Below are positions 8,756-31,861 of a stretch of 32,132 nt of DNA, one piece after another. Source of the DNA: Armatimonadota bacterium (lineage in GTDB: Bacteria; Armatimonadota; Zipacnadia; UBA1398; JAKPQA01). The stretch spans positions 1 to 32,132 of the forward strand of contig JAKPQA010000146.1 of NCBI GenBank assembly GCA_029547025.1, written 5' to 3'. The notes under the pieces were generated by a model. That model worked only from the letters and a program-made list of their open reading frames with translations, was not told the DNA's origin and did no database searches. Every line of letters starts with the position of its first letter. The first letter of the stretch is position 1. The position numbers were made by a program, and so were the translations under genes.

Positions 8756-11173
8756 ATGCGTGGTGTGCTCTGCCTGGTTGGCGCGACCGTGGTTGCCTTC
8801 GGTGGGCCAGCGAACGCCACACCCGTGGTGCTGTTCGATGACGATGCCGAGGGTGAGATCTCGGTCGTGGACTCCGCCGGTGCCACCAAGGTCGAGCTGA
8901 CCCGCGTGGGCGTCGATGGCGGCGTTGCACCCGTACGGGGCGAGCGCATGCTTCGCCTCGCCGGCACATCCGAGGCACCCGCCGGTGGTGGCGGGTCCCG
9001 AGCCTACATCCGGTTCTGGACCGGGCACGTGCCCGTCACCGCTGGCATGCGGCTGAGCTACTGCGTCTACGCTCGGCCCGAGTCCGTGGCCCATGGGTTC
9101 GCCATCGACTTGGCCGCGCCCGACTTCTACCCGAACAACCTGCGCGACCAGCCTGCTGCTGTGGACCAGAACGGCGTCCGCGCGCACCCGTCGCTTGGCT
9201 TCCTGGCCGACCGCAGCATCGGCCAGTGGTGCTACCGCGAGATCAGCCTCGAGGCGATCGCCGGCCGCGAGATCACTGCCGCCTACGCCGCATGGGACGC
9301 CGGCGGCCCCGAGTCCGGGCCGTTTGCGGGATACTTCGACCAGGTGATGCTGTGGACGGCTGGCGACACCGAAGCGCAGGCCCTGGCCGATCGGTGCCGG
9401 GCAGCGTGCGCGCCCGGGGCGATGGCCGAGGAGGATCTGTCCGCCTTCGGAGTCCCCGTGGGCCTCGGGGCGCCCGCCCCTCTCGCCCCCGTCTCCCCCA
9501 CCCTTGCGCCTCCGCCGGCCGATGCCGGTCTCGTCGTGCTGGGCGCGAACGGCTACTTCCAGTTCAGCAACGGGCGGCCGTTCCTGCCCTGGGGCATGTT
9601 CGGCAGCGAGATCTACACTCAGTTCGGCCGCGATGGGCTCACCGGCCCCGGCCCCTGGTGGTCACACGTGCCGCCGGCGGGGGATGTGGGGGACAACTCC
9701 GAGCCGGTGGAGATCTCCGAGGACGACTGGACCGCCTACTTCGCCGAGTGCCGACGGCGAGGCATCACGGCCCTGCGACTGTTCACCTACGGGCACGCCA
9801 CGCCCGAGGGCGAGCCCGGCTACTACTTCCCGCTGGATGCCGTGGGCAAGGTCCACCCCGTGCTGTGGGGCAAACTCGACCGGTTCATGCAGGCCGGCTA
9901 CGAGCAGGGCATCTTGTTCCTGTTCACCCTGATCGCCTCACCCGATTGGATGCCCTATGTCAGCCATCCCCGGCCGGACTCGCCCGCGAACCAGGTACTG
10001 CACGAGGCCCGGCGGCAGTACGCTGCCGAGGAGCTCACAGGCCTCGATGCCGCGCGCCGCCGGTTCCTGCTGGCTGAGCGCACCGTCAGCATTGGCGACG
10101 CGTTCCGCAACGATGCCTTCTTCGAGGATGCCGACATCGCGGCGTGTGTCGAGAACTACCTGCGGGACTTGTTGCGGCGGCTCGCCGCGGACCAGCGCGT
10201 GTTTGGTCTCGAGATCATGAACGAGACATTCCCGACGAAGTATGCCCAGTGGGCGCGGGACCATGTCGTCCGGCTCTGCCGGGAGTTGGCCCCCGGCCGG
10301 CCCGTGACGGTGAGCCACACGCTCGGCTCGGGCGTCCAGAGTCTCGAGGCTGCCTCCTTCGTTCGGACCGCCGGGCTGGACTTCTACAACTGGCACTCCT
10401 ACCTTCGCCAGAACGCCCCCGTGACGATGGAGTTGGCCTCGAACTGCCTCTTCTACAACGCGCCGGTCCCCGGGTTCCCCACCGAGGGCCCGGCCTACTA
10501 CGGCGGCATCGACCCGGGGCAGGTGGACGAACGATCCCGCCGGCTCGCCATTCGCGATTACCTCTGGCTCCCTCTGGTGACCGGTTGTCCCGGGTCCATC
10601 CTGTGGGCGCCGGAGAACAGCCGCATCGCGCCAGCCGAGTGGGAGGAGCTGGGGCGGTTCCATGCCGTGCTGGCCGAGATCTCGGGTGGCATCGACTTCG
10701 CCGCGCTTCGCCGCGAGCCGCCCGCCATCGAGCTGGCGGTCGACCTTCCGCCGGGCCTGCGCCTGGCCTACACGACCCGTTGCCTGCGGCACGGCACGGC
10801 CGTGGGCTTCGGCGTCGATGGGAGCACGGGCGCCGCCGTCAGGATCTCGGAGCCAGAGCCTCTGGCAGACCTCACCACCCTACCCCGTCCGGTCCGCGCA
10901 GTCGGTTGCGACCTGGCGCCCTACCTGGCCCGTGAGGGCTACGCCGACGTAATCGCATACCTGCCGAACCGGCTCAGGGAGGCCCGTGGCACGGCCGCGA
11001 GACCCGTCGAGCTGGTCCTGAACCTCCCGCCCGGCCGCTACCGAGCCCGAGCCTACGCCATCGGCGAGCAGACTCGCGCTGAGGGCATCGTAGACGCCCA
11101 CTGCCGCGTGGCGATCGCGGAGTCAACCACCGACGACTACGTCGTCTGGCTGCAACGACTCGACTCACTCTGA
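8756..11173 (+). CDS. Exported clan GH-A (GH5-like) glycoside hydrolase
   Basis: Predicted exported retaining glycoside hydrolase of 805 residues. Signal peptide 1-21 (ending ANA), then a beta-sandwich, probably carbohydrate-binding, to about 215, a proline/alanine linker (about 238-262), and a (beta/alpha)8 barrel at about 265-640 that opens with FQFSNGRPFLPWGMFG, the usual first strand of GH5-type enzymes. E490 in GLEIMNE is the Asn-Glu acid/base of clan GH-A. E577 (PTEGPAYYGG) and E620 (LWAPENS) are candidate nucleophiles; I cannot decide between them. A C-terminal beta domain follows. agagg lies 6 nt before ATG 8756, and the gap from the LamG protein gene is 8 bp, so the two are almost certainly cotranscribed. 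Its 3' end overlaps the convergent SIS gene by 37 nt. Family GH5 or a GH-A relative; substrate unknown. Confidence 0.87.
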   Translation: MRGVLCLVGATVVAFGGPANATPVVLFDDDAEGEISVVDSAGATKVELTRVGVDGGVAPVRGERMLRLAGTSEAPAGGGGSRAYIRFWTGHVPVTAGMRLSYCVYARPESVAHGFAIDLAAPDFYPNNLRDQPAAVDQNGVRAHPSLGFLADRSIGQWCYREISLEAIAGREITAAYAAWDAGGPESGPFAGYFDQVMLWTAGDTEAQALADRCRAACAPGAMAEEDLSAFGVPVGLGAPAPLAPVSPTLAPPPADAGLVVLGANGYFQFSNGRPFLPWGMFGSEIYTQFGRDGLTGPGPWWSHVPPAGDVGDNSEPVEISEDDWTAYFAECRRRGITALRLFTYGHATPEGEPGYYFPLDAVGKVHPVLWGKLDRFMQAGYEQGILFLFTLIASPDWMPYVSHPRPDSPANQVLHEARRQYAAEELTGLDAARRRFLLAERTVSIGDAFRNDAFFEDADIAACVENYLRDLLRRLAADQRVFGLEIMNETFPTKYAQWARDHVVRLCRELAPGRPVTVSHTLGSGVQSLEAASFVRTAGLDFYNWHSYLRQNAPVTMELASNCLFYNAPVPGFPTEGPAYYGGIDPGQVDERSRRLAIRDYLWLPLVTGCPGSILWAPENSRIAPAEWEELGRFHAVLAEISGGIDFAALRREPPAIELAVDLPPGLRLAYTTRCLRHGTAVGFGVDGSTGAAVRISEPEPLADLTTLPRPVRAVGCDLAPYLAREGYADVIAYLPNRLREARGTAARPVELVLNLPPGRYRARAYAIGEQTRAEGIVDAHCRVAIAESTTDDYVVWLQRLDSL

Positions 11174-11721
11174 TGCTTCAGATACTGGGATAGCACGTGG
11201 TCGAGGATGAGGTGCAGGTCCTCCACACATCCGTAGTTGCGGCTGGACACGGTGATGTCGAGGTCGACGAGCGCCTTCAGTTTGCCACCGCCGAAACCGA
11301 TGAGCCCCACGGTCCACAGCCCGCGCTGCTTAGCGAACTCAACGGCCTTCAGGATGTTGGGCGAGTTGCCGGAAGCCGTGATGGCAATCAGGACGTCGCC
11401 GGCTCGCGCCAGTACGTCCAGCTGCTCGGAGAAGATGCTGTCGTAGTCGATGTCATTCCCCACAGCACTGATCATCGACGTGTTGTCGGTGAGCGACAGG
11501 GCGCGGATCCTCGGCAGGCCCTCGATCGAGGCGCCCTTGGCGAGGTCGCAGCAGAAGTGTGAGGCCGTGGCCGCACTGCCGCCGTTGCCGATGATGAACA
11601 CCGTCTGGCCGGCCATTCGCGCCTCGTTCACGCGATCGGCGAGCTGCTGTAGGCGGTCGGGGTCGAGTTCGTCGAGCACGGCGCGGAGCTGCGCCACGTA
11701 GTCGGCCAGGAATGCTCTCAT
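11137..11721 (-). CDS. SIS-domain isomerase, phosphoheptose isomerase-like
   Basis: Predicted cytoplasmic sugar-phosphate isomerase of the GmhA/DiaA branch of SIS proteins, 194 residues, close to the usual GmhA length. FIIGNGGSAATASHF (42-56) is the phosphate-binding loop and TASGNS (115-120) the second SIS motif. By alignment with GmhA from memory, the metal ligands would be H55, D59, E167 and H175, where the E. coli enzyme has His, Glu, Gln and His; two ligands are therefore conservatively changed. GmhA makes D-glycero-D-manno-heptose 7-phosphate for LPS or S-layer heptose. ATG 11721 is preferred over ATG 11727 because GGAGG is 8 nt upstream of it. The C-terminus overlaps the convergent hydrolase gene. 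A DiaA-like or other sugar-phosphate role is possible. Confidence 0.85.
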   Translation of the reverse strand: MRAFLADYVAQLRAVLDELDPDRLQQLADRVNEARMAGQTVFIIGNGGSAATASHFCCDLAKGASIEGLPRIRALSLTDNTSMISAVGNDIDYDSIFSEQLDVLARAGDVLIAITASGNSPNILKAVEFAKQRGLWTVGLIGFGGGKLKALVDLDITVSSRNYGCVEDLHLILDHVLSQYLKHQSESSRCSQTT

Positions 11722-11747
11722 GCACATGTCCCTCCGGGTCGTGTGGA

Positions 11748-11784
11748 CTGCCGGCGGCGCCGCGATGGACGGCACCGCCGGCAG
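11748..11784 (-). terminator. Long GC-rich hairpin between lipoprotein and SIS genes
   Basis: CTGCCGGCGG (11748-11757) pairs perfectly with 11775-11784, and after one mismatch four further pairs form, leaving a 7-nt loop. On the minus strand it lies 35 nt after the lipoprotein stop and 27 nt before the SIS ribosome binding region. It may end the upstream transcript, or attenuate or stabilise the boundary. No U-tract follows. Confidence 0.5.
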
Positions 11785-11819
11785 CATGACCCGAAAGGCG
11801 CTGGTGTGCAAGAGGCAGC

Positions 11820-12035
11820 CTACTGTGTGGCAGGGCCGCCCTGGGAGCGCGTGCCGGGCATGGTTCCACTCTGCATCTTCTGCTTCATGAACTCGGCCTG
11901 CTTCATCCCGAACGCTTTGCCCTGGGCCTGGGCTTCCTCGGGTGTGGTCGCCTGCTTGCCTTTGCATCCCCCGGCAACCATCAGCGCGGCGACCTGGACG
12001 CCCAGCAACGCCCGCTTCATCACACGGATCCACAT
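11820..12035 (-). CDS. Small predicted lipoprotein (71 aa)
   Basis: Predicted membrane-anchored lipoprotein of 71 residues with no recognised domain. The N-terminus MWIRVMKRALLGVQ leads into a hydrophobic stretch ending VAGGC, a plausible lipobox with the modified Cys at position 24. The rest is short, rich in Lys, Gln and Met (AQGKAFGMKQAEFMKQ) and probably helical or disordered. ATG 12035 is chosen because gagagg lies 5 nt upstream; the open frame to 12056 has no support. It begins 48 bp after the pseudopilin gene on the same strand, so it may be part of the same transcript. Small lipoproteins next to such pseudopilins look familiar to me in Armatimonadota-like genomes, but their role is unknown. 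Confidence 0.75.
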   Translation of the reverse strand: MWIRVMKRALLGVQVAALMVAGGCKGKQATTPEEAQAQGKAFGMKQAEFMKQKMQSGTMPGTRSQGGPATQ

Positions 12036-12083
12036 GGTGACCTCTCCACTTCGCATGGGACGGGGCCGACCGCGCCCCCGCCG

Positions 12084-12857
12084 CTACTGCTTCATGCCGT
12101 CACAGGACACACGGATGGTTCCCTGCCAGCTATACCCGGGGCACGCCAGGATCGTCTTGGCCGCGGGGAACCACTTGGCGTGCCCGTCAGCGAACGCGAT
12201 GTTCGACCCGCCGTTGTGCCGCGTGTACTTCTGGATGGCGAGGTCCAGGTTGGTGATCTGCGGCCAGCAACCGCACGTGAACGCATCTTGCGCCCCTCCA
12301 GCCGTCCAGTTCGCGAAGGCGACCATGACGGATATGCCGGACTGCGGGTCGGGGGATGAGACCCACCGGGTGGTGAAGCAGTCGGCCAGAAGGCCCACTT
12401 CGGCGGGGCGCTGATGGCTGGCCATGCTCCACACGCCGTTGTCGCCCCAGTTGCGGAAGGGCGCCTCCTGGATCTGCACATTGTAGCCGTAGTGGACAAT
12501 GTAGTTCGGACGTCCGAACTGCCCGCCGTAGCAGTTGCCCATCCACTCGTCCATCTGGACGGCGCTCGGGCACTGGAACACAGCGGTGTTCTTGATATAG
12601 GGCTGGAGCTGCTCGAACCACTGCAACGACTGCGTCACGCCATAGGAGCACTGGGTGGCGTGCGTCGGGAAGCCCTCATCACTGTCCTGGGCGTACTGTA
12701 GCATGGCGTTGGCGAGTTGCTTGAGGTTGGAGAGGCACGAAGTCTGGCGGGCTTTGGCCCGGGCCTTGGCGAAGACGGGGAACAGGATGGCGGCCAGGAT
12801 CGCGATGATGGCGATCACCACGAGAAGCTCGATGAGCGTGAACCCCCTGCATCGCAC
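12084..12857 (-). CDS. Type II secretion-like pseudopilin (DUF1559-like)
   Basis: Predicted pseudopilin of 257 residues with a class III prepilin signal: MRCRG, cleavage after G5, then [20 protein letters not shown] with the conserved Glu at +5. This segment anchors the protein in the membrane and packs it into a pilus-like filament. The soluble part contains SCLSNLKQL (40-48) and the C-terminal motif [16 protein letters not shown] (214-229), both typical of large expanded families in Armatimonadota and Planctomycetota. The start is GTG 12857; the overlapping ATG at 12859 is out of frame. ggaaggg lies about 9 nt upstream. The gene lies 45 bp after the LacI regulator on the same strand. Such proteins are usually encoded as scattered single genes without a secretion operon, as here. 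Function beyond filament or surface display is unknown. Confidence 0.92.
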
Positions 12858-12902
12858 ATGAACCAGTCCCTTCCTGGCGGAGCCCCGTCGGCCCCGCGTT
12901 GC

Positions 12903-13931
12903 TCAGGAGTCTCCGACTTGCCGTCGGGACGACTCCCGGATACACAAAGATGCCGTCAGCTCCGCGCCCTGGAGCGGGAGGTCCGGCTGATCGATGCGGC
13001 GCTGCAGGAACCCAATGCCCTGTTCGCACATCTGGGCGACCGGCATCACGATGGTGCTGATGGGGCGGTCGACGTACTGCGTCTCATCGGTGCCATCGCA
13101 TCCGACAAGGGCCACGTCTTCGGGAATGCGAACGCCCAGGTCGCGCAGCGCTCGGTACACGCCCAAGGCCGTCACGTCATTGCAGCAGAAGAGACCATCG
13201 GGCAGTCGTCGGCGTTCGGCCGCATGGGCCAGAAACGCCTCTCGAGCACCCCGGCGGGTGCCTTTGGGGAAGACGACGAGCTCCGGCTCGAGCCCGGCAG
13301 CTGCCATGGTGGACTCATAGGCCAACCGTCGTGCCTCGTGCGGGTGAGCGGAGATCTGGGGCACGACGTACACGATGCGGCGGCAGCCCTGCTCAATGAG
13401 GTGACTCACCGCGTCCGCCGCCCCGCGTCCCAGCTCGATGCTCACGTGATCCACTCCGCGGTAGCAGTCCGAGCCGACACTCACCACCGGCTTGCCAAAC
13501 CCGGGCGGGTCATCGACCAGGGCCTGCACCAGGTCGCAACGATCGACGGTGAGAATGCCGTCGACCTGTCCCTCGAGCCGGCGCACGCCATGGAGGAACC
13601 ACTCGCGGTCGCCTTCAGTGCCTTCGACCACCATGCCCCACCCAAGAGGTTCGAGCCGCTGCTGGACGCAGTCCATGACATCTGTGGCGAAGGGGTACCA
13701 GCGGTATGGAACGACGACCCCAACCATGTGCGTGCGCCCGGTGACCAGGGCCTGCGCGATCCGGTTGGGCTCATAGCCCAGACGCTCGGCGATGCGCAGG
13801 ACCCGGTCGCGCGTCGCGGACGCAATGCGACTGTCCAGCCGGCCGTTGAGGACCCGCGAGACCGTGGCCGGGGAGACTTGGGCCTCCCGGGCAATGTCGT
13901 GGAGCGTGCGGCGGCTGCCGGCTTGCCTCAC
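12903..13931 (-). CDS. LacI-family transcriptional regulator
   Basis: Sugar-responsive DNA-binding repressor of 342 residues, the normal LacI/GalR length. The helix-turn-helix is TLHDIAREAQVSPATVSRVL (9-28), followed by the hinge region (PNRIAQALVTGRT, 55-67) and a periplasmic-binding-protein-like ligand domain (68-342) with VALVGCDGTDE near the dimer interface. GTG 13931 is chosen over ATG 14000 because cggagg lies 6 nt upstream and the HTH then starts at the usual residue 9. The extra 23 codons from ATG 14000 would also run across the operator and promoter. A palindrome at 13966-13983 overlaps its own predicted start point, so autorepression is likely. The pseudopilin, lipoprotein and SIS genes follow on the same strand. 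The effector is unknown. Confidence 0.94.
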   Translation of the reverse strand: MRQAGSRRTLHDIAREAQVSPATVSRVLNGRLDSRIASATRDRVLRIAERLGYEPNRIAQALVTGRTHMVGVVVPYRWYPFATDVMDCVQQRLEPLGWGMVVEGTEGDREWFLHGVRRLEGQVDGILTVDRCDLVQALVDDPPGFGKPVVSVGSDCYRGVDHVSIELGRGAADAVSHLIEQGCRRIVYVVPQISAHPHEARRLAYESTMAAAGLEPELVVFPKGTRRGAREAFLAHAAERRRLPDGLFCCNDVTALGVYRALRDLGVRIPEDVALVGCDGTDETQYVDRPISTIVMPVAQMCEQGIGFLQRRIDQPDLPLQGAELTASLCIRESSRRQVGDS

Positions 13932-13965
13932 CGTCGTCCTCCGAGCCCCGAATGGCGCTACGCAC

Positions 13966-13983
13966 TGCGCAAACGTTTGCGCA
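13966..13983. promoter_or_regulatory. LacI-type operator, 18-bp perfect palindrome
   Basis: TGCGCAAACGTTTGCGCA is perfectly symmetric with the central CG and the AAACGTTT core typical of LacI/GalR/PurR operators. It lies 35 bp upstream of the LacI GTG start, directly after the predicted -10 box, centred near +4. The neighbouring LacI protein is the obvious ligand. A 12-nt half of it with flank (13963-13974) recurs at 16459-16470. Confidence 0.85.
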
Positions 13984-13984
13984 T

Positions 13985-14013
13985 ATGGTACCGTGCCCAT
14001 CCTGAGCCGTCAA
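13985..14013 (-). promoter_or_regulatory. Predicted promoter of the LacI gene
   Basis: Read on the minus strand, TTGACG (14013-14008) is followed after 17 nt by TACCAT (13990-13985). The start point would fall near 13978, inside the operator palindrome, so a bound repressor would block initiation. Confidence 0.65.
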
Positions 14014-19755: not shown

Positions 19756-20225
19756 AGGCGCACCTCTCTCCGCGGGTCGCGAGCCCGCTCAGTCGGTCCG
19801 TTTGAGTACGGGCTCCATCAGCACCCGCTGCCGTACGGTGCAGACGTCGCCGTGGCGGAGCCCCTCCCAAAGCAGCCGCGGGCCGCCTGCAGACCGGGCT
19901 TATCGCATGGGGGTCTCCGAATGGAAAAGAGCCGAGCGCGGCACTCTGCCCTCATCCGGACAACACCGACCGGCGGTCGGGGCGCAGCCCTGCGGAGCCC
20001 TGTCCTCCAGCTGGATAACAAGGGGCGCATCCCCTCCCCGCGAAAGAGGCAATCGCCTCGTGGAGGCGCCCAAGCGTGACCCATGTGCCCGGTGCGCGCC
20101 CCCCATGGTGCCCCTCCGCAACCAGGCCTCTGGCCCCCTGGCGAGGAATGCCACCACCGCCTCGCGAATCCCTCTCACCAGATAGGCATCCATCCCACTA
20201 CCCTCCCGTCCATGCGAGGCCGCCC
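19756..20225. other. Divergent intergenic region rich in stem-loops
   Basis: This 470-bp gap separates the divergent DinB-like and HzsA/FGE-like genes. I see no credible ORF or RNA gene. It contains a stem-loop at 19781-19815 (11 pairs with a 2-nt bulge), a 6-bp stem at 19966-19980, a 4-bp stem at 19983-19994, a perfect 6-bp stem with 3-nt loop at 20054-20068, and a 29-nt sequence at 20099-20127 shared with 94-122. It may be a 5' leader or structured RNA, but the GC-rich composition also makes chance hairpins likely. Confidence 0.4.
20099..20127 (+). repeat. 29-nt dispersed direct repeat, copy 2
   Basis: Second copy of the sequence at 94-122, 99 bp before the start of the HzsA/FGE-like gene. 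The only difference is C versus T at the eleventh base. Function unknown. Confidence 0.65.
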
Positions 20226-23200
20226 ATGTGCTTGCGATCCCTTGCCCTCGTGCTGCTTGCCACCGCTCCGGCGGCGCTCTCGGCGCCCGTCGACGGCCTT
20301 GGCTTCGTCGCCACCGATCCGGCCGGGCCCGGCGAGGCCGCCGCTCGAGCCCTGGCCACGGGCAGTTTCGGCGCCCGGGTGCTGGCCGCCACTGCCGACG
20401 GCGCCCTCAACATCCCCGCCGACGTCCGCGCCCTGTGGTGGCATTGCGAGCGATGGCCCCTGCCCGCCCCCATGGACTCCCCCGGGGCGAAGCAGGCGCT
20501 GCTGGACTGGATCAGCCGCGGCGGAGGGCTGTTCCTCTCCGGCACCGCGCTGGCGTACGTCGTGCCGCTGGGGCTCGAGTCCTCGTCCCCGCGCGTGGGT
20601 CCTACGGCGGGCGATGACACCGTGACCGCCGGCGTGTGGCCGAACCCACCCGACCACCCGGTCTTCGCGGGCTTCGAGCCGGGCCAGCCCGTCCTGCTGA
20701 CTGGCGGAGGCTACCCGGCCTTCGCCGACTTCTACCCGGGCGGCCCCGCCGGCGCCCACGTCCTGGGCCGAGCCTATGGCGGTACGACCGAGGCGCCGCT
20801 GGTCGAGTACAGCTGCGGCAAGGGCCGCGTCATCGCCCTGGGCTGGCGCTGCCCGCACTACTCCAAGACCGGTGACCAGTGGCGCGGCAACCTGGAGCGA
20901 CTCACGGGCAACATCCTGGCCTACCTGAGCCGGGGCGAGTGGTTCGGCACCGTCGAGGACGCCCACACGCGCTCGGTCCGCGCCACGCTGGGCCGGGTCG
21001 ACATCGACGCCATGCGCCGCGCCGTGGCCGATCTATCAGAGACATTCGGCGAGCGCTATCCCCGCGGCCGTGAGTACTCGGCCCTCATCCACCGCTACGC
21101 CGAGCTCTCCGCCAAGGCGCTGGCCGGCGACGAGGGCGCTCTCGCACAGGCCGGCGAGCTACTGCCGCGGCTCAACGCCATGATGCTCGACAACCCGCTG
21201 CTCGACTTCGCCGAGCTCCTGCTCGTGAAGCGTTCCGCCGGCAACCTGGGCCTGCCCGCCAACTGGGAGAGCAACTCGAGCCTGCCTCGCAGTGGCTTCG
21301 ACAACGAGATCGATGCCCTCTCTCCGCTCCGCCCCGATGGCGACCTGCGCACCGTCTACCGGCCCCAGCGTGATGTGTTCGTCGGCGATGTCGATCTGCA
21401 CTTCGATGCCGGCCGGATGCTGTTCTCATCGGTCGCCGACGATGGCCGCTGGCAGGTGTTTGAGTCGAACCTGGCGAGCACCCCGCCCCAACCTTTGCCG
21501 CTGATCCGCGAGCCAGACGTGGACAACTACGATGCCTGCTACCTGCCGAGCGACGACATCATCTTCACATCAACTGCACCCTTCGTCGGCGTCCCGTGCG
21601 TGACCGGCTCGGCCCATGTGTCGAATCTCTACCTCTACCGCCGGAAAACGGGTCAGATCCGCCAACTGGGGTTCGGCCAGGACCATGAGTGGTGCCCCAC
21701 CGTCATGCCCAACGGACGTGTCATGTACCTCCGCTGGGAGTACACCGACATCCCGCACTTTGTCTCGCGAATCCTGTTCCACATGAACCCCGATGGTACC
21801 GAGCAGATGGAGTACTACGGCAGCAACTCCTACTGGCCGAACTCAATGTTCTATGCTCGCCCCATTCCCGGCAGCACGACCCGGTTCGTCACCGTCGTGG
21901 TCGGCCACCACGACAACCCTCGCATGGGCGAGCTGGTGCTCTTCGATGCCAGCAAGGGCAAGACCGAGACCGACGGCGTCATCCAGCGCATCCCCGGGTG
22001 GGGCAAGCGCGTCGATCCCATCCTCCTCGACGGCCTGACCGCGGGGAGCTGGCCCAAGTTCCTCCACCCCTACCCACTCAGCGACAAGTACTTCCTGGTC
22101 TCGTGCAAGCCCACACCCGCATCGGACTGGGGCATCTACCTGGTCGATGTGTTCGACAACCTGACGCTGATCAAAGAGGTACCCGGCTACGCCCTGCTCG
22201 AGCCGATCCCGCTTCGCCCCACACCTCGCCCGCCGGTTGTGGCCGACCGCGTCGACGCGACGCGAAAGGACGCCCTGGTCTACCTGACCGATGTCTACGC
22301 CGGACCGGGGCTGAAGGGCGTGCCACGCGGGGCCATCAAGAAGCTGCGGTTGTTCACCTACCACTTCGCCTACCACAACATGGGCGGGCAGATCAACCGC
22401 GTGGGCATCGATGGCCCCTGGGATGTGAAGCGCATCATGGGCACGGTGCCCGTCGAAGCCGACGGCTCAGCCCTCTTCCGCGTGCCGGCGAACACGCCCA
22501 TCGCCGTTCAGCCGCTCGATGAGGACGGTCAGGCCCTGCAGCTCATGCGCTCGTGGATGACTGCCATGCCCGGCGAAGTGCTCTCGTGCGTCGGCTGCCA
22601 CGAGAAGCAGCACACGGCGCCGCCCACGACTGCCACGACCATGGCTTCGACTCGCGGGCCGGCTGAGATCACCCCATGGTACGGCCCGACCCGCGGATTC
22701 TCATTCGTGCGTGAGGTCCAGCCCGTGCTCGACCACTACTGCGTGAGCTGCCACAGCGGGGCGGCGGGCGCGCCCGAACCGGACTTCCGCCAGGCGCCTC
22801 TCGTCCATCCGCCCGGGCCCGACAACGGCTACCAGCAGGGCTCGCAGTTCCCACCGGCCTACTTGGCGCTCAAGCCGTTCGTCCGCAATGCCACCATCGA
22901 GAGTGACATGCACCTGCTGATGCCCGGCGAGTTCGCCGCCGACACCACTCGTCTGATCCAGATGCTCCGCCAGGGCCATTACGGGGTTGTGCTCGACCCG
23001 GAGTCGTGGGACCGGCTCATCACGTGGATCGACCTCAACACACCCGCTCACGGCACCTGGCACGAGATCGTGGGCCACGGCTTGGTCGACCCCATGCGCG
23101 ACCGCCGCCGAGCCATGCTGAGCAGGTACGCGGGCATCGACGAGGACCCCGAGGCCATCTGGATGCCCGAAGGCGGCGTGCGGCCCGGCGAGGCCGGCCC

Positions 23201-24092
23201 ACCGACGTCGGCGGCTCCGGTTGCCGCGCCTGAGCAGCGGTCTGGGACCCCCATCCTCACCGCCGATCGTGGCGCACCTGCCGCCGGCGCGATGCAATCG
23301 ATCGACCTGGGGGATGGGGTGACGCTCGAACTCGTCTACATCCCCGCCGGGCCCTTCCCCATGGGGCCCGCCAACCCCGACGATGACGGTCGCCCGCTGG
23401 CGCCCGAACGCATGGATCATGCCTTCTGGATGGGCCGGTTCGAGGTCACCAACCGCCAGTACGCGGCATTCGATCCCTCTCACGACAGCCGCCTCGAGGA
23501 GGGCGACTACCTCCAGTTCGGTATCGAGGAGCGCGGCTATCCGGTCAACGCGCCCGAGCAGCCCGTGGTCCGCGTCTCTTGGGACGCGGCCAACGCCTTC
23601 TGCCAATGGGCATCCCGGCGGACCGGCCTTGCCATCGGTCTGCCGACCGAGGCCGAGTGGCAATACGCCTGCCGCGCCGGCACCGCCACACCGCTATGGT
23701 TCGGCCAGCTGGATGCCGACTTTTCGCCTTTCGCAAACCTGGCCGATGCGTCATTGCGCGCCGTCGACACCTATGCCCCTTGGGGGTTGCCCTCAGGCGC
23801 CATTGCCCCCTGGCGGCCGGCCGTCGAGACCGCCAACGACGGCTACCGCGCCTCAGCTCCGGTGGGCTCCTACCGACCGAACCCCTGGGGCCTGTACGAC
23901 ATGGTGGGCAATGTGGCCGAGTGGGTCCAAGCTGCCTATCGACCTCCGCACGGTCCGCGTGACCTTCGCCTGGCCCTGGGCGGCTCCTGGTATGACAAGC
24001 CCCAGCGCGCCCAGCCCACCTTCCGCCAGGGCTACCCACCCTATCGCGGCGTCTATGACGTGGGCTTCCGCGTGATGTGCCGGGCGGAGTAG
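20226..24092 (+). CDS. Exported HzsA-like dihaem protein fused to an FGE-like domain
   Basis: Predicted exported protein of 1288 residues with three parts. After a signal peptide (1-20, ending ALSA), residues about 20-240 resemble a ThuA/amidotransferase-like alpha/beta domain (ALLDWISRGGGLFLSG). Residues about 300-960 match HzsA-related proteins: a propeller region from about 385 (DAGRMLFSSVADDG, FTSTAPFVGVPC) and two haem-c motifs, CVGCH (788-792) and CVSCH (839-843). Residues 1023-1288 are a formylglycine-generating-enzyme-like (SUMF1) domain (YIPAGPFPMG, LPTEAEWQYACRAG, GLYDMVGNVAEWV). Where genuine FGE has its two catalytic cysteines, this protein reads LALGGSWYDKPQRAQ, so sulfatase activation is unlikely. 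ATG 20226 has GAGG 6 nt upstream. HzsA-related proteins are widespread outside anammox bacteria and of unknown function; no HzsB/C partner is present. A redox or binding role at the cell surface is inferred. Confidence 0.9.
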   Translation: MCLRSLALVLLATAPAALSAPVDGLGFVATDPAGPGEAAARALATGSFGARVLAATADGALNIPADVRALWWHCERWPLPAPMDSPGAKQALLDWISRGGGLFLSGTALAYVVPLGLESSSPRVGPTAGDDTVTAGVWPNPPDHPVFAGFEPGQPVLLTGGGYPAFADFYPGGPAGAHVLGRAYGGTTEAPLVEYSCGKGRVIALGWRCPHYSKTGDQWRGNLERLTGNILAYLSRGEWFGTVEDAHTRSVRATLGRVDIDAMRRAVADLSETFGERYPRGREYSALIHRYAELSAKALAGDEGALAQAGELLPRLNAMMLDNPLLDFAELLLVKRSAGNLGLPANWESNSSLPRSGFDNEIDALSPLRPDGDLRTVYRPQRDVFVGDVDLHFDAGRMLFSSVADDGRWQVFESNLASTPPQPLPLIREPDVDNYDACYLPSDDIIFTSTAPFVGVPCVTGSAHVSNLYLYRRKTGQIRQLGFGQDHEWCPTVMPNGRVMYLRWEYTDIPHFVSRILFHMNPDGTEQMEYYGSNSYWPNSMFYARPIPGSTTRFVTVVVGHHDNPRMGELVLFDASKGKTETDGVIQRIPGWGKRVDPILLDGLTAGSWPKFLHPYPLSDKYFLVSCKPTPASDWGIYLVDVFDNLTLIKEVPGYALLEPIPLRPTPRPPVVADRVDATRKDALVYLTDVYAGPGLKGVPRGAIKKLRLFTYHFAYHNMGGQINRVGIDGPWDVKRIMGTVPVEADGSALFRVPANTPIAVQPLDEDGQALQLMRSWMTAMPGEVLSCVGCHEKQHTAPPTTATTMASTRGPAEITPWYGPTRGFSFVREVQPVLDHYCVSCHSGAAGAPEPDFRQAPLVHPPGPDNGYQQGSQFPPAYLALKPFVRNATIESDMHLLMPGEFAADTTRLIQMLRQGHYGVVLDPESWDRLITWIDLNTPAHGTWHEIVGHGLVDPMRDRRRAMLSRYAGIDEDPEAIWMPEGGVRPGEAGPPTSAAPVAAPEQRSGTPILTADRGAPAAGAMQSIDLGDGVTLELVYIPAGPFPMGPANPDDDGRPLAPERMDHAFWMGRFEVTNRQYAAFDPSHDSRLEEGDYLQFGIEERGYPVNAPEQPVVRVSWDAANAFCQWASRRTGLAIGLPTEAEWQYACRAGTATPLWFGQLDADFSPFANLADASLRAVDTYAPWGLPSGAIAPWRPAVETANDGYRASAPVGSYRPNPWGLYDMVGNVAEWVQAAYRPPHGPRDLRLALGGSWYDKPQRAQPTFRQGYPPYRGVYDVGFRVMCRAE

Positions 24093-24117
24093 TCGGGGGG
24101 GCATGCCGCCAAACGCC

Positions 24118-24440
24118 ACATCCCGCTTCCCGCAGGCGAGGCTTCAGCCTCGCGCGCTACAGGCCGTAAGGCAGGTGGCCACATCCCGCTTCCCGTAGGC
24201 GAGGCTTCAGCCTCGCGCGCACCCATTGTCGCCGGAGGCCCTCCGTACCGAGGCTGAAGCCTCGGCTACAGGCCGTAAGGCAAGTGACCACATCCCGCTT
24301 CCCGTAGGCGAGGCTTCGGCCTCGCGCGCGCCCATTGTCGCCGGAGGCCCTCCGTACCGAGGCTGAAGCCTCGGCTACAGGCCGTAAGGCAGGTGGCCAC
24401 ATCCCGCTTCCCGTAGGCGAGGCTTCAGCCTCGCGCGCAC
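24118..24440. repeat. Tandem REP (BIME-like) array, 109-bp units
   Basis: Four units begin at 24118, 24181, 24290 and 24399. The two complete ones are 109 bp; the first is 63 bp because the 46-bp second half is missing; the last is truncated by the RAYT gene end. Each full unit contains palindrome GCGAGGCTTCAGCCTCGC with GTAG directly 5' of it, a 31-nt spacer, and palindrome CCGAGGCTGAAGCCTCGG with CTAC (GTAG on the other strand) directly 3' of it. Two inverted, GTAG-tagged palindromes are the layout of a bacterial interspersed mosaic element. The first unit has GCAG instead of GTAG. Confidence 0.88.
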
Positions 24441-24973
24441 TGCCTCCGTGTGGCCGAAGAGCACGCACTCGGGGGCGGCGGCTGCCCGAACGTGCGCACG
24501 TAGCGCTCAGCGAACTCCCCACACGATGACGCCGGGTAGTCCTCGGGCCGCTCCACGATCCCAGCGCGGACGGGATTCGCGTGGGTGTAGTCGGCCATCT
24601 CGCGCAGTGCCTGCTCATCACGAACGGTGCGCTCCCAGTAGGAGGGTTGCCACACCCGGCCTTCGCGTCCGAGCGCTACGTTAAGCTCGCGCGCGAACCT
24701 GCCTTTGAGCCGACGGACACCGTCCGCCACAGCGTGCCCGTGCGGCAACCAGATGACCATATGGAGGTGGTCCGGCATGAGCACATAGGCCAGGCAGCTG
24801 AACAGGCCTTGGGTCTCGCAGTCCGCGAGACACCGAGCGAAGATCGCCCGTGCCTGGTCAGTTCGGAGAAGCGGCCTCCGGCCATCCGTTACGGTGGTCA
24901 CATGGTACACGCCTGTCCCTCGGAACAGACTCGACCGTAACGGATTCCTACCGCCGTTCGGTGGCGCGGCCAT
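24425..24973 (-). CDS. REP-associated tyrosine transposase (RAYT, Y1/HUH)
   Basis: Predicted single-domain HUH endonuclease of 182 residues, of the IS200-like TnpA_REP group, which nicks single-stranded REP DNA. The fold opens with GVYHVTTVTDG. The HUH motif is MPDHLHMVIW (H69, H71) and the likely nucleophile is Y129 in DYTHANPVRAGIV, the family's conserved Y-x-H-x-N-P-V segment. ATG 24973 has gagg 7 nt upstream. REP palindromes flank it on both sides, and its stop codon (24425-24427) lies inside the palindrome at 24417-24434, so the last residues (QCARG) are read from the repeat. RAYTs are domesticated, normally single-copy, and do not move as classical IS elements. No terminal inverted repeats or target-site duplications are seen. 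Confidence 0.92.
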   Translation of the reverse strand: MAAPPNGGRNPLRSSLFRGTGVYHVTTVTDGRRPLLRTDQARAIFARCLADCETQGLFSCLAYVLMPDHLHMVIWLPHGHAVADGVRRLKGRFARELNVALGREGRVWQPSYWERTVRDEQALREMADYTHANPVRAGIVERPEDYPASSCGEFAERYVRTFGQPPPPSACSSATRRQCARG

Positions 24974-25120: not shown

Positions 25121-26098
25121 CTATCCACCCAACCCTCTAAGCTCATCCTCGAGCCGGAAGGCCGCCAGCGCCAGCCGGCGGAGCGACACGCGCCGCGCTT
25201 CGTCCTGGTAGCCCGGGGGGAGCGGCGGTGCATCCGCCGGCGGACGCGACCGTAGGCGGCCGTCGGCATCCCGATAGCTCTCCGCCCGCGCCCCACTGAG
25301 CTCACCCCTGAGATAGACGGAATCGGCTGCCACCTGGCGGCTCTCGAGCGCCCAGGCTTCGGGTGTCGTGTCGCGCTCGAGCTCGGGCAGCTTCGCCCGC
25401 GCCAGCTCCGGGTCCGCCGCCATCTTGCCGGCGCGCCCCAGAAGCCGCATGGTACGTTCCGTCAAGCCCACGGCATCATCCCAGAACGCGTGGAGTTTCA
25501 CGGGCCGATCGCCATCGCGAACGCAGAAGAGGTTCCCTCCCGCATCGCCCTCCGGGTACGGATCACTGAAGAACGCTGTGCAGTGAAGCGGCTGGTGGAT
25601 GTCGGCCACCAGGTGCACGAGCCATGCCAGGTGTGCGGCACGCTCGACTGCCGTGGGCACACGGTCACCGATCACCGCCCTCGTACGCTCCGTCACCCTG
25701 CCCTCAACGATGTCGTGGCTGCACATCAGGCCGAAGATGATGTCATTCCCCGGTTCGGGCCGGGGCTCGATGGCGAAGTCCGGCGCACGCAGGGGGTAGT
25801 TGACATAGTGCCACTCGGCGTGGTCGAACGGGCTTCCGCTGCGCCGGATCTCATCGGGCCACGGGCTCGCCTTCATGAACACGTAGAGCCCGACATCGTC
25901 GATGTCGCACGCTTCGACCCACCGGGTGTAGTCCGGATGGTCCCTGAGGACCACGTCCACCCACTCCCGCGCGGGCCCGGGCAGCGCTCGATAGGCCGCC
26001 GCGGCCACAATCTGGTGCCCGGTGGCGTTCCACGCCTGCGCGGCCGTCGCGCCAGCCAGGGCCACTATCGCGAGTGGCACCGCCAGAGACCTGCGCAT
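25121..26098 (-). CDS. Exported S1/P1-type nuclease
   Basis: Predicted exported zinc-dependent nuclease of 325 residues. The signal peptide ends TAAQA (22) and the mature protein would begin W23-N-A-T-G-H28, the same Trp-x4-His spacing as W1 and H6 of P1 nuclease, where the freed amino-terminal Trp itself binds zinc. Other metal and active-site segments are FDHAEWHYVNYP, MCSHDIVEG, HLVADIHQPLH and GDAGGNLF. The length is typical. ATG 26098 is preferred (ggagg 9 nt upstream) over ATG 26104, which is too close to the same site. The enzyme would degrade single-stranded DNA and RNA or release 3' phosphate outside the cytoplasm, for nutrient use. It diverges from the URO-D-like gene; the gap contains palindrome GTCCCGCGGGAC at 26155-26166. 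A phospholipase C-like relative is less likely. Confidence 0.93.
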   Translation of the reverse strand: MRRSLAVPLAIVALAGATAAQAWNATGHQIVAAAAYRALPGPAREWVDVVLRDHPDYTRWVEACDIDDVGLYVFMKASPWPDEIRRSGSPFDHAEWHYVNYPLRAPDFAIEPRPEPGNDIIFGLMCSHDIVEGRVTERTRAVIGDRVPTAVERAAHLAWLVHLVADIHQPLHCTAFFSDPYPEGDAGGNLFCVRDGDRPVKLHAFWDDAVGLTERTMRLLGRAGKMAADPELARAKLPELERDTTPEAWALESRQVAADSVYLRGELSGARAESYRDADGRLRSRPPADAPPLPPGYQDEARRVSLRRLALAAFRLEDELRGLGG

Positions 26099-26154
26099 GG
26101 CCATCGCCCTCCGCTGCCCACTGGTGTCGGGTTTCCTGGTGGCTTCGGTCGCGC

Positions 26155-26166
26155 GTCCCGCGGGAC
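26155..26166. promoter_or_regulatory. Perfect 12-bp palindrome in the divergent promoter region
   Basis: GTCCCGCGGGAC lies 57 bp before the nuclease start and 150 bp before the URO-D-like start. It could be an operator. It is GC-only apart from its ends and may be chance. Confidence 0.25.
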
Positions 26167-26315
26167 CTGTCTCCCCTTTACGCGGCATCCGTGCGGCGGA
26201 GTGAGCGTCTCGGCCGGCCATTCCCGTGTGAGGTCCTCGGCAACGAACTGAAGAACAGACCGCGGCGCGCCGGAATCGGGCGGCGCGAAGACCTGGGCCG
26301 TGGGGGGTACCCGGC

Positions 26316-27581
26316 ATGACTGCGCGCGAACGGATGCGAGCCGTGTTTCGGCGGGAGCCTGTGGACCGGCTGCCCTATGTCTTTGGTGGACCGCGGGCGT
26401 CAACGTTCGCCGCGTGGCGGAAGCAGGGACTGTCCGAGGAGCTGCAGCGAAACTGGGGCCACTTCGTCGGCTCCGACGGCGCGATGGGCATCGGGAAGCT
26501 CTACCAAGGCCCACTGCCGCCGTTTGAGGAGCGCGTCATCTCGGTGGAGGGCAATGTGCGCACTTGGGTCGACGAGTGGGGCGTGACGCGCGCCGATGCT
26601 GTGAACCAGCCCACCGACGGCTTCGCGACCCGAAAGTACCTCGACTTCCCCGTCAAGACGCCAGCGGATTTCGAGGAGATGAAGGGCCACTTCGACCCGC
26701 ACACGCCCGAGCGTACCCTTCCCGTCGACACGGTCACCCCAAGCCTCAACCCCGATGGCTACCGCCACCACACCCCCGGCGGGGTCCACTGGCGCGACCT
26801 TGTCGACGCGTGCAACCAAGCCGATGTTCCCGTGATGGCCTCCGTCTCCGGGCTCTACTGGACGGCACGCGACTGGTGCGGGTTTGAGGGGCTCTCCTAC
26901 ATGGTCTACGACCAACCCCTCCTCGTGCACGAGATGATGGAGTATTGGACCTGGTTCATCATGGAGCTGCTGCGGGAGCCGCTTTCGCACATTCAGGTCG
27001 ACGTGATGGTCATCAACGAGGACATGGCCTTCAAGCCACAGGCCATGCTCTCGCCTGCATCGATACGCGAGTTCATGCGGCCGCGTTACGAACGGCTGTA
27101 CGAGTTCCTCAAGTCGCACGGCGTCGGGACGGTTCTGATGGACTCCGACGGCTACAACGGCCAGATCCTCGAGGTGTTGTACCCCACCGGGCTCGATGGA
27201 ATCTGCCCCGTCGAGATCGCGGCCGGCAACGATCCCGAGGAGATGCTGACGCGCTTTCCCGGCGTGGTGCTTCAGGGCGGGATCGACAAGCGCGAGCTGC
27301 GCTTTGGCCGCGACCAGCTCCGGGCCGAGGTGGCGAAGCGCTACGCCGCGGCCCGGAGGCATGGCGGCTATGTGCCCCATGTCGACCACGGTGTGCCGCC
27401 GGACATCCCGCTGAGGAACTTCCTATACTATGTCGAGCTCGCACGCGGCTACTGCGATGGTGAGGATCTCGAGAACTACGAGCCGCCCTGCGAGCTCGAG
27501 AAGCAGCTTGGCCCCATCGAGGAGATGTTCGACCCGCGGTCGGCCATCGCCGCCGCGTTCGCCATGGACAAGGCCGAGTAG
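26316..27581 (+). CDS. Uroporphyrinogen decarboxylase-like protein
   Basis: Predicted TIM-barrel protein of the URO-D superfamily, 421 residues, without signal peptide. The opening [20 protein letters not shown] is the usual N-terminus of URO-D-like and corrinoid methyltransferase-like proteins. The C-terminal motifs GGIDK (about 322-326) and [13 protein letters not shown] (about 350-362) are shared with the second copy at 29659-30774. True HemE is shorter and carries a different N-terminal arginine cluster, so haem synthesis is unlikely. Relatives include MtaA/CmuA-type methyl transferases and many uncharacterised members expanded in Planctomycetota, Lentisphaerota and Armatimonadota. ATG 26316 has a ggggggt stretch upstream. 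An esterase gene follows after 22 bp, so they are probably cotranscribed. Substrate unknown. Confidence 0.88.
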
Positions 27582-29658: not shown

Positions 29659-30774
29659 CTACGGCGGCCCGGCCTCCTGGAACGGGGCCGGCGGTGCCCC
29701 GCAATGCTGCCGGATGCGGTCCATCATGTGCCAGAAGGGCCGGTAGTGGCAGATGGGTGGCAGACCGTGGTCGATGCTCGGCAGATAGCCGCCGCTCCGC
29801 ACCAGTGGCGGAACCTTCGCGTCCACCTCAGCAATGGCCATAGCCGGGTCCGGGTCCACCGTGGCGTGCTTGTCGATCCCACCGCAGATGATGAATCGGG
29901 GCAGCTCCGCCCGGATCCGTAGCACGTCGGAGCCGCCGTGTGTCGGCTCGAAGGCGTGGCACATGTTCACACCCGAGCGCCACAGGCAGTGGACGAACTC
30001 CGTGATATCGCCATCGCAGTCCACATCGACCACGGCCGCGCCGATGCGGCGGGCGAAGTCGGCAACCTCGCGGTAGTAGGGTGCGCAGAACTCGTCGAAG
30101 GCCGCCGGCGAAATGAGCATGCCACTGCGGTAGCACATGTCCTCCCAGCCGATGATGGCGTCCACCTGCACCTTCCGTGCCACCTCCCATGCCTGATCCA
30201 GGAACAGGTCGGTGAACGCGCGGCTCATCTCGTGGAGCAGCTTCGGGTCGTCGTGCATGAGGTAGGATATGCGGTCGAGCCCGAACCAGCTCCGATAGAC
30301 TCCAAAGTAGCTCGGGCAACTGATGGCCAGCGGTTGCTCGGGCTGCTCGGCCGGGACCTCGGGCCTCGGACGGTCAGGATGCGCCGGGTCGAGCCGCGGC
30401 CGCATGTGCTCCTCGAAGTCGCGGCGATCCTCGAACATGTAGGTCCGGAACTCAGGCATGGTGTACAGATCCCAGTTGTTGGCCAGTTCGCGCGTGGTCG
30501 CCTTGTGCTGGCGGATCAGCACATAGCCGTCGCCCAGATCCTCGGTCTCGACGGGAAAGTCAGGAACGAACCCCGTGTGAAGTCCGACTCCCGCATAACC
30601 TTCGGCACCAAAGAACTCGACGATCGAATCGTAGTCACTCGGGTAGCCCTCTTCGGCGACCCACCGCTCGACCGTCTCCTTGTGGGCGATGCCGATGCCC
30701 GGCGGGTACCAGTAGGGCACGTAGTCGGGTGTCTCGAAGTGGACGATCGACAGAAACCGTTCGCGCGTCGTCAT
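29659..30774 (-). CDS. Second uroporphyrinogen decarboxylase-like protein
   Basis: Predicted URO-D-superfamily TIM barrel of 371 residues, cytoplasmic. It opens MTTRERFLSIVHFETPDYVP and shares GGIDK (298-302) and GGYLPSIDHGLPP with the protein at 26316-27581, but the two are otherwise diverged and this one lacks about 50 residues. It is rich in cysteine and histidine in the barrel (EDMCYRSGM, VNMCHAFEPTH), which would suit a metal-bound thiol substrate as in MtaA-like methyl transferases; this is inference. Its ATG overlaps the stop of the formate/nitrite channel gene in an ATGA arrangement, so translation is probably coupled. gaagggg lies about 8 nt upstream of the start. Substrate unknown. 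Confidence 0.88.
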   Translation of the reverse strand: MTTRERFLSIVHFETPDYVPYWYPPGIGIAHKETVERWVAEEGYPSDYDSIVEFFGAEGYAGVGLHTGFVPDFPVETEDLGDGYVLIRQHKATTRELANNWDLYTMPEFRTYMFEDRRDFEEHMRPRLDPAHPDRPRPEVPAEQPEQPLAISCPSYFGVYRSWFGLDRISYLMHDDPKLLHEMSRAFTDLFLDQAWEVARKVQVDAIIGWEDMCYRSGMLISPAAFDEFCAPYYREVADFARRIGAAVVDVDCDGDITEFVHCLWRSGVNMCHAFEPTHGGSDVLRIRAELPRFIICGGIDKHATVDPDPAMAIAEVDAKVPPLVRSGGYLPSIDHGLPPICHYRPFWHMMDRIRQHCGAPPAPFQEAGPP

Positions 30775-31652
30775 CGGCGCGGCCCCTTCTCTTGTGTCGT
30801 GCCCTCGCCTCTACCATAGATCAGCCAGTACACCCCGGCCACGAACCCGGCACCCCCGACGATGTTCCCCAGAGTCACGGGCAGCAGATTGGCCCCGGCG
30901 AAGTTCGCCCAGGTCAGGTCGGCAAACTGCCCGGGTGACGCGCCGGCCGTGGCCCAGAAAGCCGCCGGGCCCCCGTGCTTGATGAACAGGGCCACGGGGA
31001 TGAAGTACATGTTCGCCACGCTGTGCTCGAAGCCACATGTCACGAACGCGGTGATGGGAAACAGAATCGCCAGAATCTTGTCACCTGTGGTGCGGCAGGA
31101 ATACGTCATCCACACGGCGAGGCAGACAAGGGCATTGCACAGCACTCCACGCGAGAGGGCCACCGTGAACGGGAGTCCGCACTTGGCGCTGGCCGTGGTC
31201 AGCGCCTGGAGCCCGACAGCTCCGTCGGCCATCGTGTGCTGCTGAGCCAGATAGACCAGATAGGCCACAGCCACCGAGCCCACCAGGTTCCCGACGTACA
31301 CAACGATCCAGTTCCGAATGAGTAACACGAAGGGTAGCCGACGGTCGGCCCAGCCCATGACCAGGAACATGTTCCCCGTGAACAGCTCGGCCCCGCCGAC
31401 CACAACCAGAATCAGGCCCAGACAGAATGCGAGGCCGCCGAGGACTCGAGCCGCCCCAAAGGGGACGATGCCATTGGCCCCCGTCATCGCCGTGGTGTAC
31501 AGGGCGGCCCCCATGGCGATGTAAGCACCCGCGAGGACCGACAGCAGCACCATGGGCCCGAAGGGCAAATGGGCCTTGTTGACACCCACTTCCGCCGCGC
31601 GCCGAGCCATCTCCGGCGGAGGGAAGGAGTCGATGGACGAGGGGCTGGTCAT
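30771..31652 (-). CDS. Formate/nitrite transporter family channel
   Basis: Predicted FNT-family pentameric channel, 293 residues with six membrane segments, conducting formate, nitrite, hydrosulfide or a similar small acid. VGGAELFTGNMF (85-96) is the FNT signature in the second re-entrant half-helix. TCGFEHSVANMYFIP (205-219) carries the conserved central histidine H210 that gates and protonates the anion. ATG 31652 has GGAGG 5 nt upstream, inside the perfect palindrome GGAGGCCTCC. The longer frame to 31856 is arginine/proline-rich and unsupported. The stop overlaps the start of the URO-D-like gene by 4 nt. FocA, NirC and HSC types cannot be told apart from the motif alone. Confidence 0.93.
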   Translation of the reverse strand: MTSPSSIDSFPPPEMARRAAEVGVNKAHLPFGPMVLLSVLAGAYIAMGAALYTTAMTGANGIVPFGAARVLGGLAFCLGLILVVVGGAELFTGNMFLVMGWADRRLPFVLLIRNWIVVYVGNLVGSVAVAYLVYLAQQHTMADGAVGLQALTTASAKCGLPFTVALSRGVLCNALVCLAVWMTYSCRTTGDKILAILFPITAFVTCGFEHSVANMYFIPVALFIKHGGPAAFWATAGASPGQFADLTWANFAGANLLPVTLGNIVGGAGFVAGVYWLIYGRGEGTTQEKGPRR

Positions 31653-31823
31653 GGAGGCCTCCGGGCGCCTGAGGCATGGCGGCATCGCGCGGCGCCGCCT
31701 TCGTGTACCGCAGCGGCGCACCTTTGGCAAGGGGCAACTCGAGGCACTAAGCAGCGCAGACGGCGGATACGGCCTGCCGCGGGCGCAAGTCCGAGGTGTC
31801 GGCCTGGGCGCGTGACCATGGGG

Positions 31824-31861
31824 CGGAAACCGCTGACAGTCACGAATGGTTCGCACCTAAG
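31824..31861. repeat. 38-nt direct repeat, copy 1
   Basis: Shares the core GACAGTCACGAATGG and the end CGCACCTAAG with the copy at 31960-31997. Function unknown. Confidence 0.7.

Follow-up and report, generated by a model that had tools for sequence, protein, structure and literature searches.

A protein resembling the hydrazine synthase subunit HzsA, fused to an FGE-like domain, and a recurrent HzsBC-like companion gene, outside anammox bacteria

A single gene in a 32,132-nucleotide stretch of DNA from an Armatimonadota bacterium (contig JAKPQA010000146.1; hereafter, the window) encodes an exported dihaem protein in which a core resembling HzsA, the alpha subunit of hydrazine synthase (HZS), is joined to a C-terminal domain resembling the formylglycine-generating enzyme (FGE). 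Hydrazine synthase is the nitrogen-joining enzyme of anaerobic ammonium-oxidizing (anammox) bacteria; it is usually treated as unique to them, and its genes serve as anammox markers. We consider it probable, if short of assured, that the fusion protein serves as the alpha (HzsA-like) subunit of an extracytoplasmic complex with several haems that resembles hydrazine synthase and has an HzsBC-like protein as its other half. The computed basis of this proposal is a match to HzsA along most of the chain, two haem motifs, the recurrent tandem arrangement and co-occurrence of the two genes in related genomes, and the swapping of accessory domains between paralogues.

The triple-domain frame described in an earlier note on this DNA proved to be real: one open reading frame of 1288 residues runs without stops, matches both the FGE-sulfatase and HZS_alpha profiles significantly, and contains the motifs CVGCH and CVSCH. 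We chose the ATG at 20226 as the start over a mechanically called GTG at 20076 because the signal peptide begins there and a homologue in another genome (G027) starts at the matching place. An assembly artefact, which the note had raised as a possible source of the fusion, was ruled out by homologues in independent genomes that retain the fusion at 59–68% identity over nearly their full length. The gene and its parts are as follows.

20226–24092, forward strand: HzsA-like/FGE-like fusion gene, encoding an exported dihaem protein (profile and fold matches).
20226–20285, forward strand: putative Sec signal peptide, MCLRSLALVLLATAPAALSA, proposed by inspection of the sequence rather than by a predictor.
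20286–20960, forward strand: DUF4960/ThuA-like domain, approximately residues 21–245 (Pfam, profile match and a low-confidence model).
20976–22328, forward strand: HzsA-like beta-propeller region, approximately residues 251–701 (alignment, profile and fold match).
22329–22604, forward strand: HZS_alpha middle domain, residues 702–793 (Pfam).
22587–22601, forward strand: haem site 1, CVGCH, residues 788–792, with no Tyr at +4 (motif and alignment).
22740–22754, forward strand: haem site 2, CVSCH, residues 839–843 (motif and alignment).
22977–23033, forward strand: conserved H918, W934 and D936 (alignment); H918 might ligate haem 2 on its distal side.
23328–24074, forward strand: FGE-like domain, residues 1035–1283, with the catalytic cysteines absent, GGSWYDKPQRAQPTFRQG (Pfam, fold match and alignment).

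The HZS_alpha domain (PF18582) matched with E = 5.3e-32, above the gathering score, and with the HzsA-like propeller and the dihaem C-terminal part it places the protein in the HzsA superfamily. By itself the fusion sequence gave a weak match to HzsA; a profile built from the 12 HzsA-like proteins of the same genome aligned with HzsA of K. stuttgartiensis (5c2v_A) in four stretches covering most of the chain (E = 3.1e-34), and the order of propeller, HZS_alpha middle domain and two c-type haem motifs is common to both. Structure prediction, as the earlier note had proposed, agreed: HzsA was the best Foldseek match (E = 1.6e-20) of an AlphaFold model of residues 237–1288, followed by PvdO and FGE, the model being a modest one (mean predicted local distance difference test (pLDDT) score 66.7, predicted template modelling (pTM) score 0.61, 20 sequences) built without haem or partner. 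The alignment of 70 cores, in which a few rows duplicate a gene, showed both haem motifs to be invariant, bar one gapped row, together with C458, R503, W504, Y506, G739, G747, R775, H918, W934 and D936; H561/H562 in the propeller region were nearly so. The conservation of C458, H562 and E793 refers to this HzsA-like set.

The haem alpha-I motif of genuine hydrazine synthase uses its histidine to bind zinc, and the iron is ligated by Tyr591, which lies four residues further along (PMC12607021). A Tyr at +4 of the haem-1 histidine is missing from all 69 sequences spanning this site, the window protein included. The fusion protein also differs from HzsA in its extra N- and C-terminal domains and in its score, 33 bits, far under the 800-bit cut-off of the NCBIfam equivalog for hydrazine synthase alpha (NF052339). 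It is thus a member of the HzsA superfamily that lacks one of the features by which hydrazine synthase is defined; with no tyrosine to ligate haem alpha-I, it probably does not make hydrazine, and hydrazine synthesis is not to be expected of its HzsA-like relatives.

Several genomes carry, beside the FGE-fused gene, a gene of approximately 620 codons for a beta-propeller followed by a MauG-like dihaem domain, the arrangement of the Scalindua-type HzsBC fusion protein (NF052342). Its best NCBIfam model was the hydrazine synthase beta–gamma fusion (E = 2e-32 to 1e-63), followed by gamma and beta, all below cut-off (112–215 bits against 1250 for NF052342), and it also matched CCP_MauG. A profile of these HzsBC-like proteins matched both HzsB (2.3e-51) and HzsC (9e-46), with HzsC far above other dihaem enzymes. 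At 17 fetched loci the HzsA-like and HzsBC-like genes lay in tandem and shared a strand, the spacing between them ranging from −101 to 278 nucleotides; the HzsA-like gene was FGE-fused in 8 of these and followed by a separate adjacent FGE gene in 2. The 8 fused loci are not independent, as they include three closely related Akkermansia-type genomes and two near-identical Hydrogenedentota loci.

The two families also occur in the same genomes. HzsBC hits at or below 1e-100 were found in 24 of the 31 Armatimonadota genomes with HZS_alpha and in none of the 260 others (Fisher p = 3e-29), and the corresponding figures in a Verrucomicrobiota sample were 31/32 against 8/163 (p = 2e-27); these statistics ignore shared ancestry, and in those eight Verrucomicrobiota genomes the screen for HzsA-like proteins covered close relatives of the window protein only. 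In one Armatimonadota family, five genomes (G038, G039, G040, G045 and G049) lack an HZS_alpha gene but gave HzsBC-like hits of moderate strength (1e-75 to 1e-97). This conserved partner lay outside the view of the earlier note, as did the paralogous HzsA-like family with interchangeable accessory domains described below.

Several observations weigh against the proposed complex. Five HZS_alpha genomes, some of them incomplete, gave no HzsBC hit. Many genomes contain from several to about 26 HzsA-like genes and usually one or two HzsBC-like hits (at least, since the scans scored only so many candidates), so that not every HzsA-like protein need have an HzsBC-like partner. Beside the window's fusion gene there is no HzsBC-like gene; the one strong hit in its genome is an N-terminal fragment at the edge of contig C57, for which no convincing second fragment was found. 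We regard an HzsBC-like partner in the window's organism as likely.

Anammox HzsC has been proposed to reduce nitric oxide (NO; PMC12607021). If the HzsA-like and separately encoded HzsBC-like proteins assemble, the dihaem HzsBC-like part might generate or hand on a small reactive molecule of nitrogen or oxygen (NO or peroxide, for instance), which the HzsA-like haem would then apply to, or couple with, a second substrate. The FGE-like and DUF4960-like domains could bind this substrate and hold it in place, or else tether the complex to glycans or a surface.

The FGE-like domain matches FGE-sulfatase in Pfam with E = 2.2e-42 and so has the fold of FGE/SUMF1 and PvdO; unlike FGE/SUMF1, it is fused to a haem protein and lacks the catalytic cysteine pair (Cys336/Cys341 of the human enzyme). 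The pair was absent from all 40 sequences compared, 34 of which, including the window's, have no Cys there and 6 a single stray one. An active FGE is thereby ruled out, and the domain probably serves binding or scaffolding. The earlier suggestion of an extracytoplasmic redox machine is reasonable, with the qualification that its FGE-like domain lacks catalytic cysteines.

For the N-terminal domain, which the earlier note had called amidotransferase-like, DUF4960/ThuA-like is the better description. When residues 1–255 were scanned alone, DUF4960 matched at 57–124 (E = 2.1e-8, above cut-off), and inspection of the likely elbow, LFLSGTAL, revealed no nucleophile cysteine, ruling out an active class I glutamine amidotransferase. 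A Bacteroides levan utilisome chain (8aa2) was the best fold match (E = 1.6e-4), on a low-confidence model (pLDDT 55.6), and the DUF4960-domain protein of that utilisome was a weak profile match; the window's domain differs in being fused to a cytochrome. Elsewhere in the window's genome (G000:C284), a rhamnosidase-like protein is joined to a domain related to this one at 41% identity. The levan-utilisome likeness and the rhamnosidase-like fusion hint that the N-terminal domain may bind glycan. The variant carrying this domain recurs in at least 7 genomes.

The window's genome (6.3 Mb in 369 contigs) holds 12 HZS_alpha genes, 11 besides the fusion gene, and several of these paralogues carry F5/8C, LamG or NPCBM domains of glycan-binding type. 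A taxonomic survey, another check put forward in the note, found HzsA–FGE fusions in Armatimonadota, Hydrogenedentota, Verrucomicrobiota and Planctomycetota. Strong matches to the window protein, most of those listed spanning both core and FGE, occurred in 21/291 Armatimonadota genomes, 32 of 195 sampled Verrucomicrobiota, 32/68 Hydrogenedentota and 12 of 294 Planctomycetota, under thresholds that differed between phyla (1e-150 or 1e-100). In a tree of the 70 cores, the FGE-associated proteins formed one clade with 39 of their 40 tips (support 0.97), the remaining tip (L131) being truncated by a contig end. Fused HzsA–FGE members grouped together at 0.999, and five pairs of adjacent, split HzsA and FGE genes formed their sister clade (support 0.95). 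The exported HzsA-type dihaem protein joined to an FGE-like fold therefore stands as the note described it, but not as a singular fusion, since the FGE-associated clade spans at least four phyla. One locus (L125/L126; G014:C5:64000-95000) packs a cluster of five HzsA-like genes, together with a single HzsBC-like and a single FGE-like gene, into about 31 kb.

The pair is also present in a genome that we take to be that of Akkermansia muciniphila ATCC BAA-835 (G409), where an HzsA-like/FGE-like fusion gene (L176, 7375–10968) is followed after 14 nucleotides by an HzsBC-like gene (10983–12845). The next gene, at 12860–13987, encodes an FkbO/Hyg5 chorismatase-like protein with a RidA-like end; it has counterparts at L175 and L177, but no such gene was observed next to the pair in the remaining genera surveyed. 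More tentatively, we suggest a wider reading, in which one HzsBC-like dihaem engine would serve exchangeable HzsA-like subunits, each with its own targeting domains (FGE-like, DUF4960-like, F5/8C, LamG or NPCBM), in a new type of redox reaction directed at substrates outside the cell, beyond the anammox bacteria, with a minimal one-plus-one version in A. muciniphila.

The fusion protein might instead need no partner, being a dihaem cytochrome that is targeted to glycans or surfaces and exchanges electrons with an extracellular substrate, the HzsBC-like protein being a separate peroxidase encoded nearby. That most genomes have more HzsA-like genes than HzsBC-like hits, that many of these HzsA-like genes, the window's included, stand alone, and that paralogues bear carbohydrate-binding-type domains all fit such a cytochrome; we nonetheless think it unlikely, given the tandem loci in several phyla, the tight co-occurrence, and a partner that resembles HzsB and HzsC specifically and not a generic peroxidase. 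Less probable again is a cell-surface complex for the detoxification of NO or peroxide, in which the HzsA-like protein would donate electrons or act as a scaffold and the extra domains would do no more than anchor it. A. muciniphila lives near host mucus, which would suit this role, as would the partner's match to CCP_MauG and the NO reduction proposed for HzsC (PMC12607021), but detoxification leaves unexplained both the abundance of HzsA-like paralogues, whose binding domains differ, and the conserved C458, H562 and R503-W504-Y506.

Protein modification is a further candidate. MauG and MbnH oxidize protein side chains and FGE binds peptides, so the FGE-like domain could hold a residue of a peptide or protein for the MauG-like unit to oxidize, and a sulfatase gene adjoins one HzsA-FGE/HzsBC locus (L187). 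We consider this very improbable: the FGE catalytic cysteines are absent, other HzsA-like paralogues have no FGE domain, and a crude sulfatase motif caught just one neighbour, leaving a general sulfatase link unsupported. Least credible of all, and barely to be entertained, is a real hydrazine synthase in a host that runs an anammox-like reaction. Relatives do exist for all three HZS parts, and one account proposes hzsABC-like sets in Phycisphaerae as possible anammox genes (PMC10732223). Against this, every match falls far under the curated HZS cut-offs, the Tyr591 equivalent is missing throughout, and the A. muciniphila genome has no match to the multihaem family PF13447. Matches to PF13447 in some other genomes were considered as a sign of anammox through HAO-type multihaem genes and set aside, as the family is not specific to hydrazine dehydrogenase.

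The same account places hzsABC-like genes outside Brocadiales in Phycisphaerae UBA1845 and in KSB1 metagenome-assembled genomes, and suggests a wider family with other substrates (PMC10732223). Its Phycisphaerae genes share with the loci described here an HzsA-like gene adjoining a fused HzsBC-like gene; its passages on these genes do not mention FGE or DUF4960 fusions, Armatimonadota, Hydrogenedentota or Verrucomicrobiota, a distinction drawn from the published description. We found no report of the FGE fusion, or of HZS-like genes in Akkermansia, in the open-licence PMC literature. The FGE and DUF4960 fusions, the split and fused forms, the breadth of phyla, the expansion of paralogues with swapped domains and the A. 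muciniphila pair thus appear new as far as the open literature shows. Relatives of all HZS parts, rearranged and fused to binding domains, are present in polysaccharide-degrading phyla and in a cultured, completely sequenced gut symbiont, making A. muciniphila a tractable organism in which to study the function of a wider hydrazine-synthase family and the origin of hydrazine synthesis. Hits to hzsA-like or hzsBC-like genes should, accordingly, not be read as anammox.

Comparison of loci revealed no evident conserved neighbours of the window's fusion gene. Upstream, the closest confidently called genes are oriented away from it; on the downstream side it is followed by repeats and an IS200-like transposase gene. 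The repeats, at 24115–24482, form a tandem array of units of about 109 nucleotides with GAGGCTTCAGCCTC palindromes that adjoins the transposase gene (Y1_Tnp; 24425–24973, reverse strand), and together they look like an element of repetitive extragenic palindromes (REP) and a REP-associated tyrosine transposase (RAYT). Further along are an S1/P1 nuclease family gene (25121–26317, reverse strand; E = 1.2e-29) and two URO-D family genes, possibly of methyltransferase type (26316–27581, forward strand, and 29659–30774, reverse strand). A large exported LamG-domain protein is encoded at 4629–8747 (forward strand), followed by an 805-residue protein without a Pfam match (8756–11173, forward strand). 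A gene of the formate/nitrite transporter family (PF01226; E = 7.5e-77) lies at 30771–31856 (reverse strand) and may be of interest given the hydrazine-synthase-like genes in the genome.

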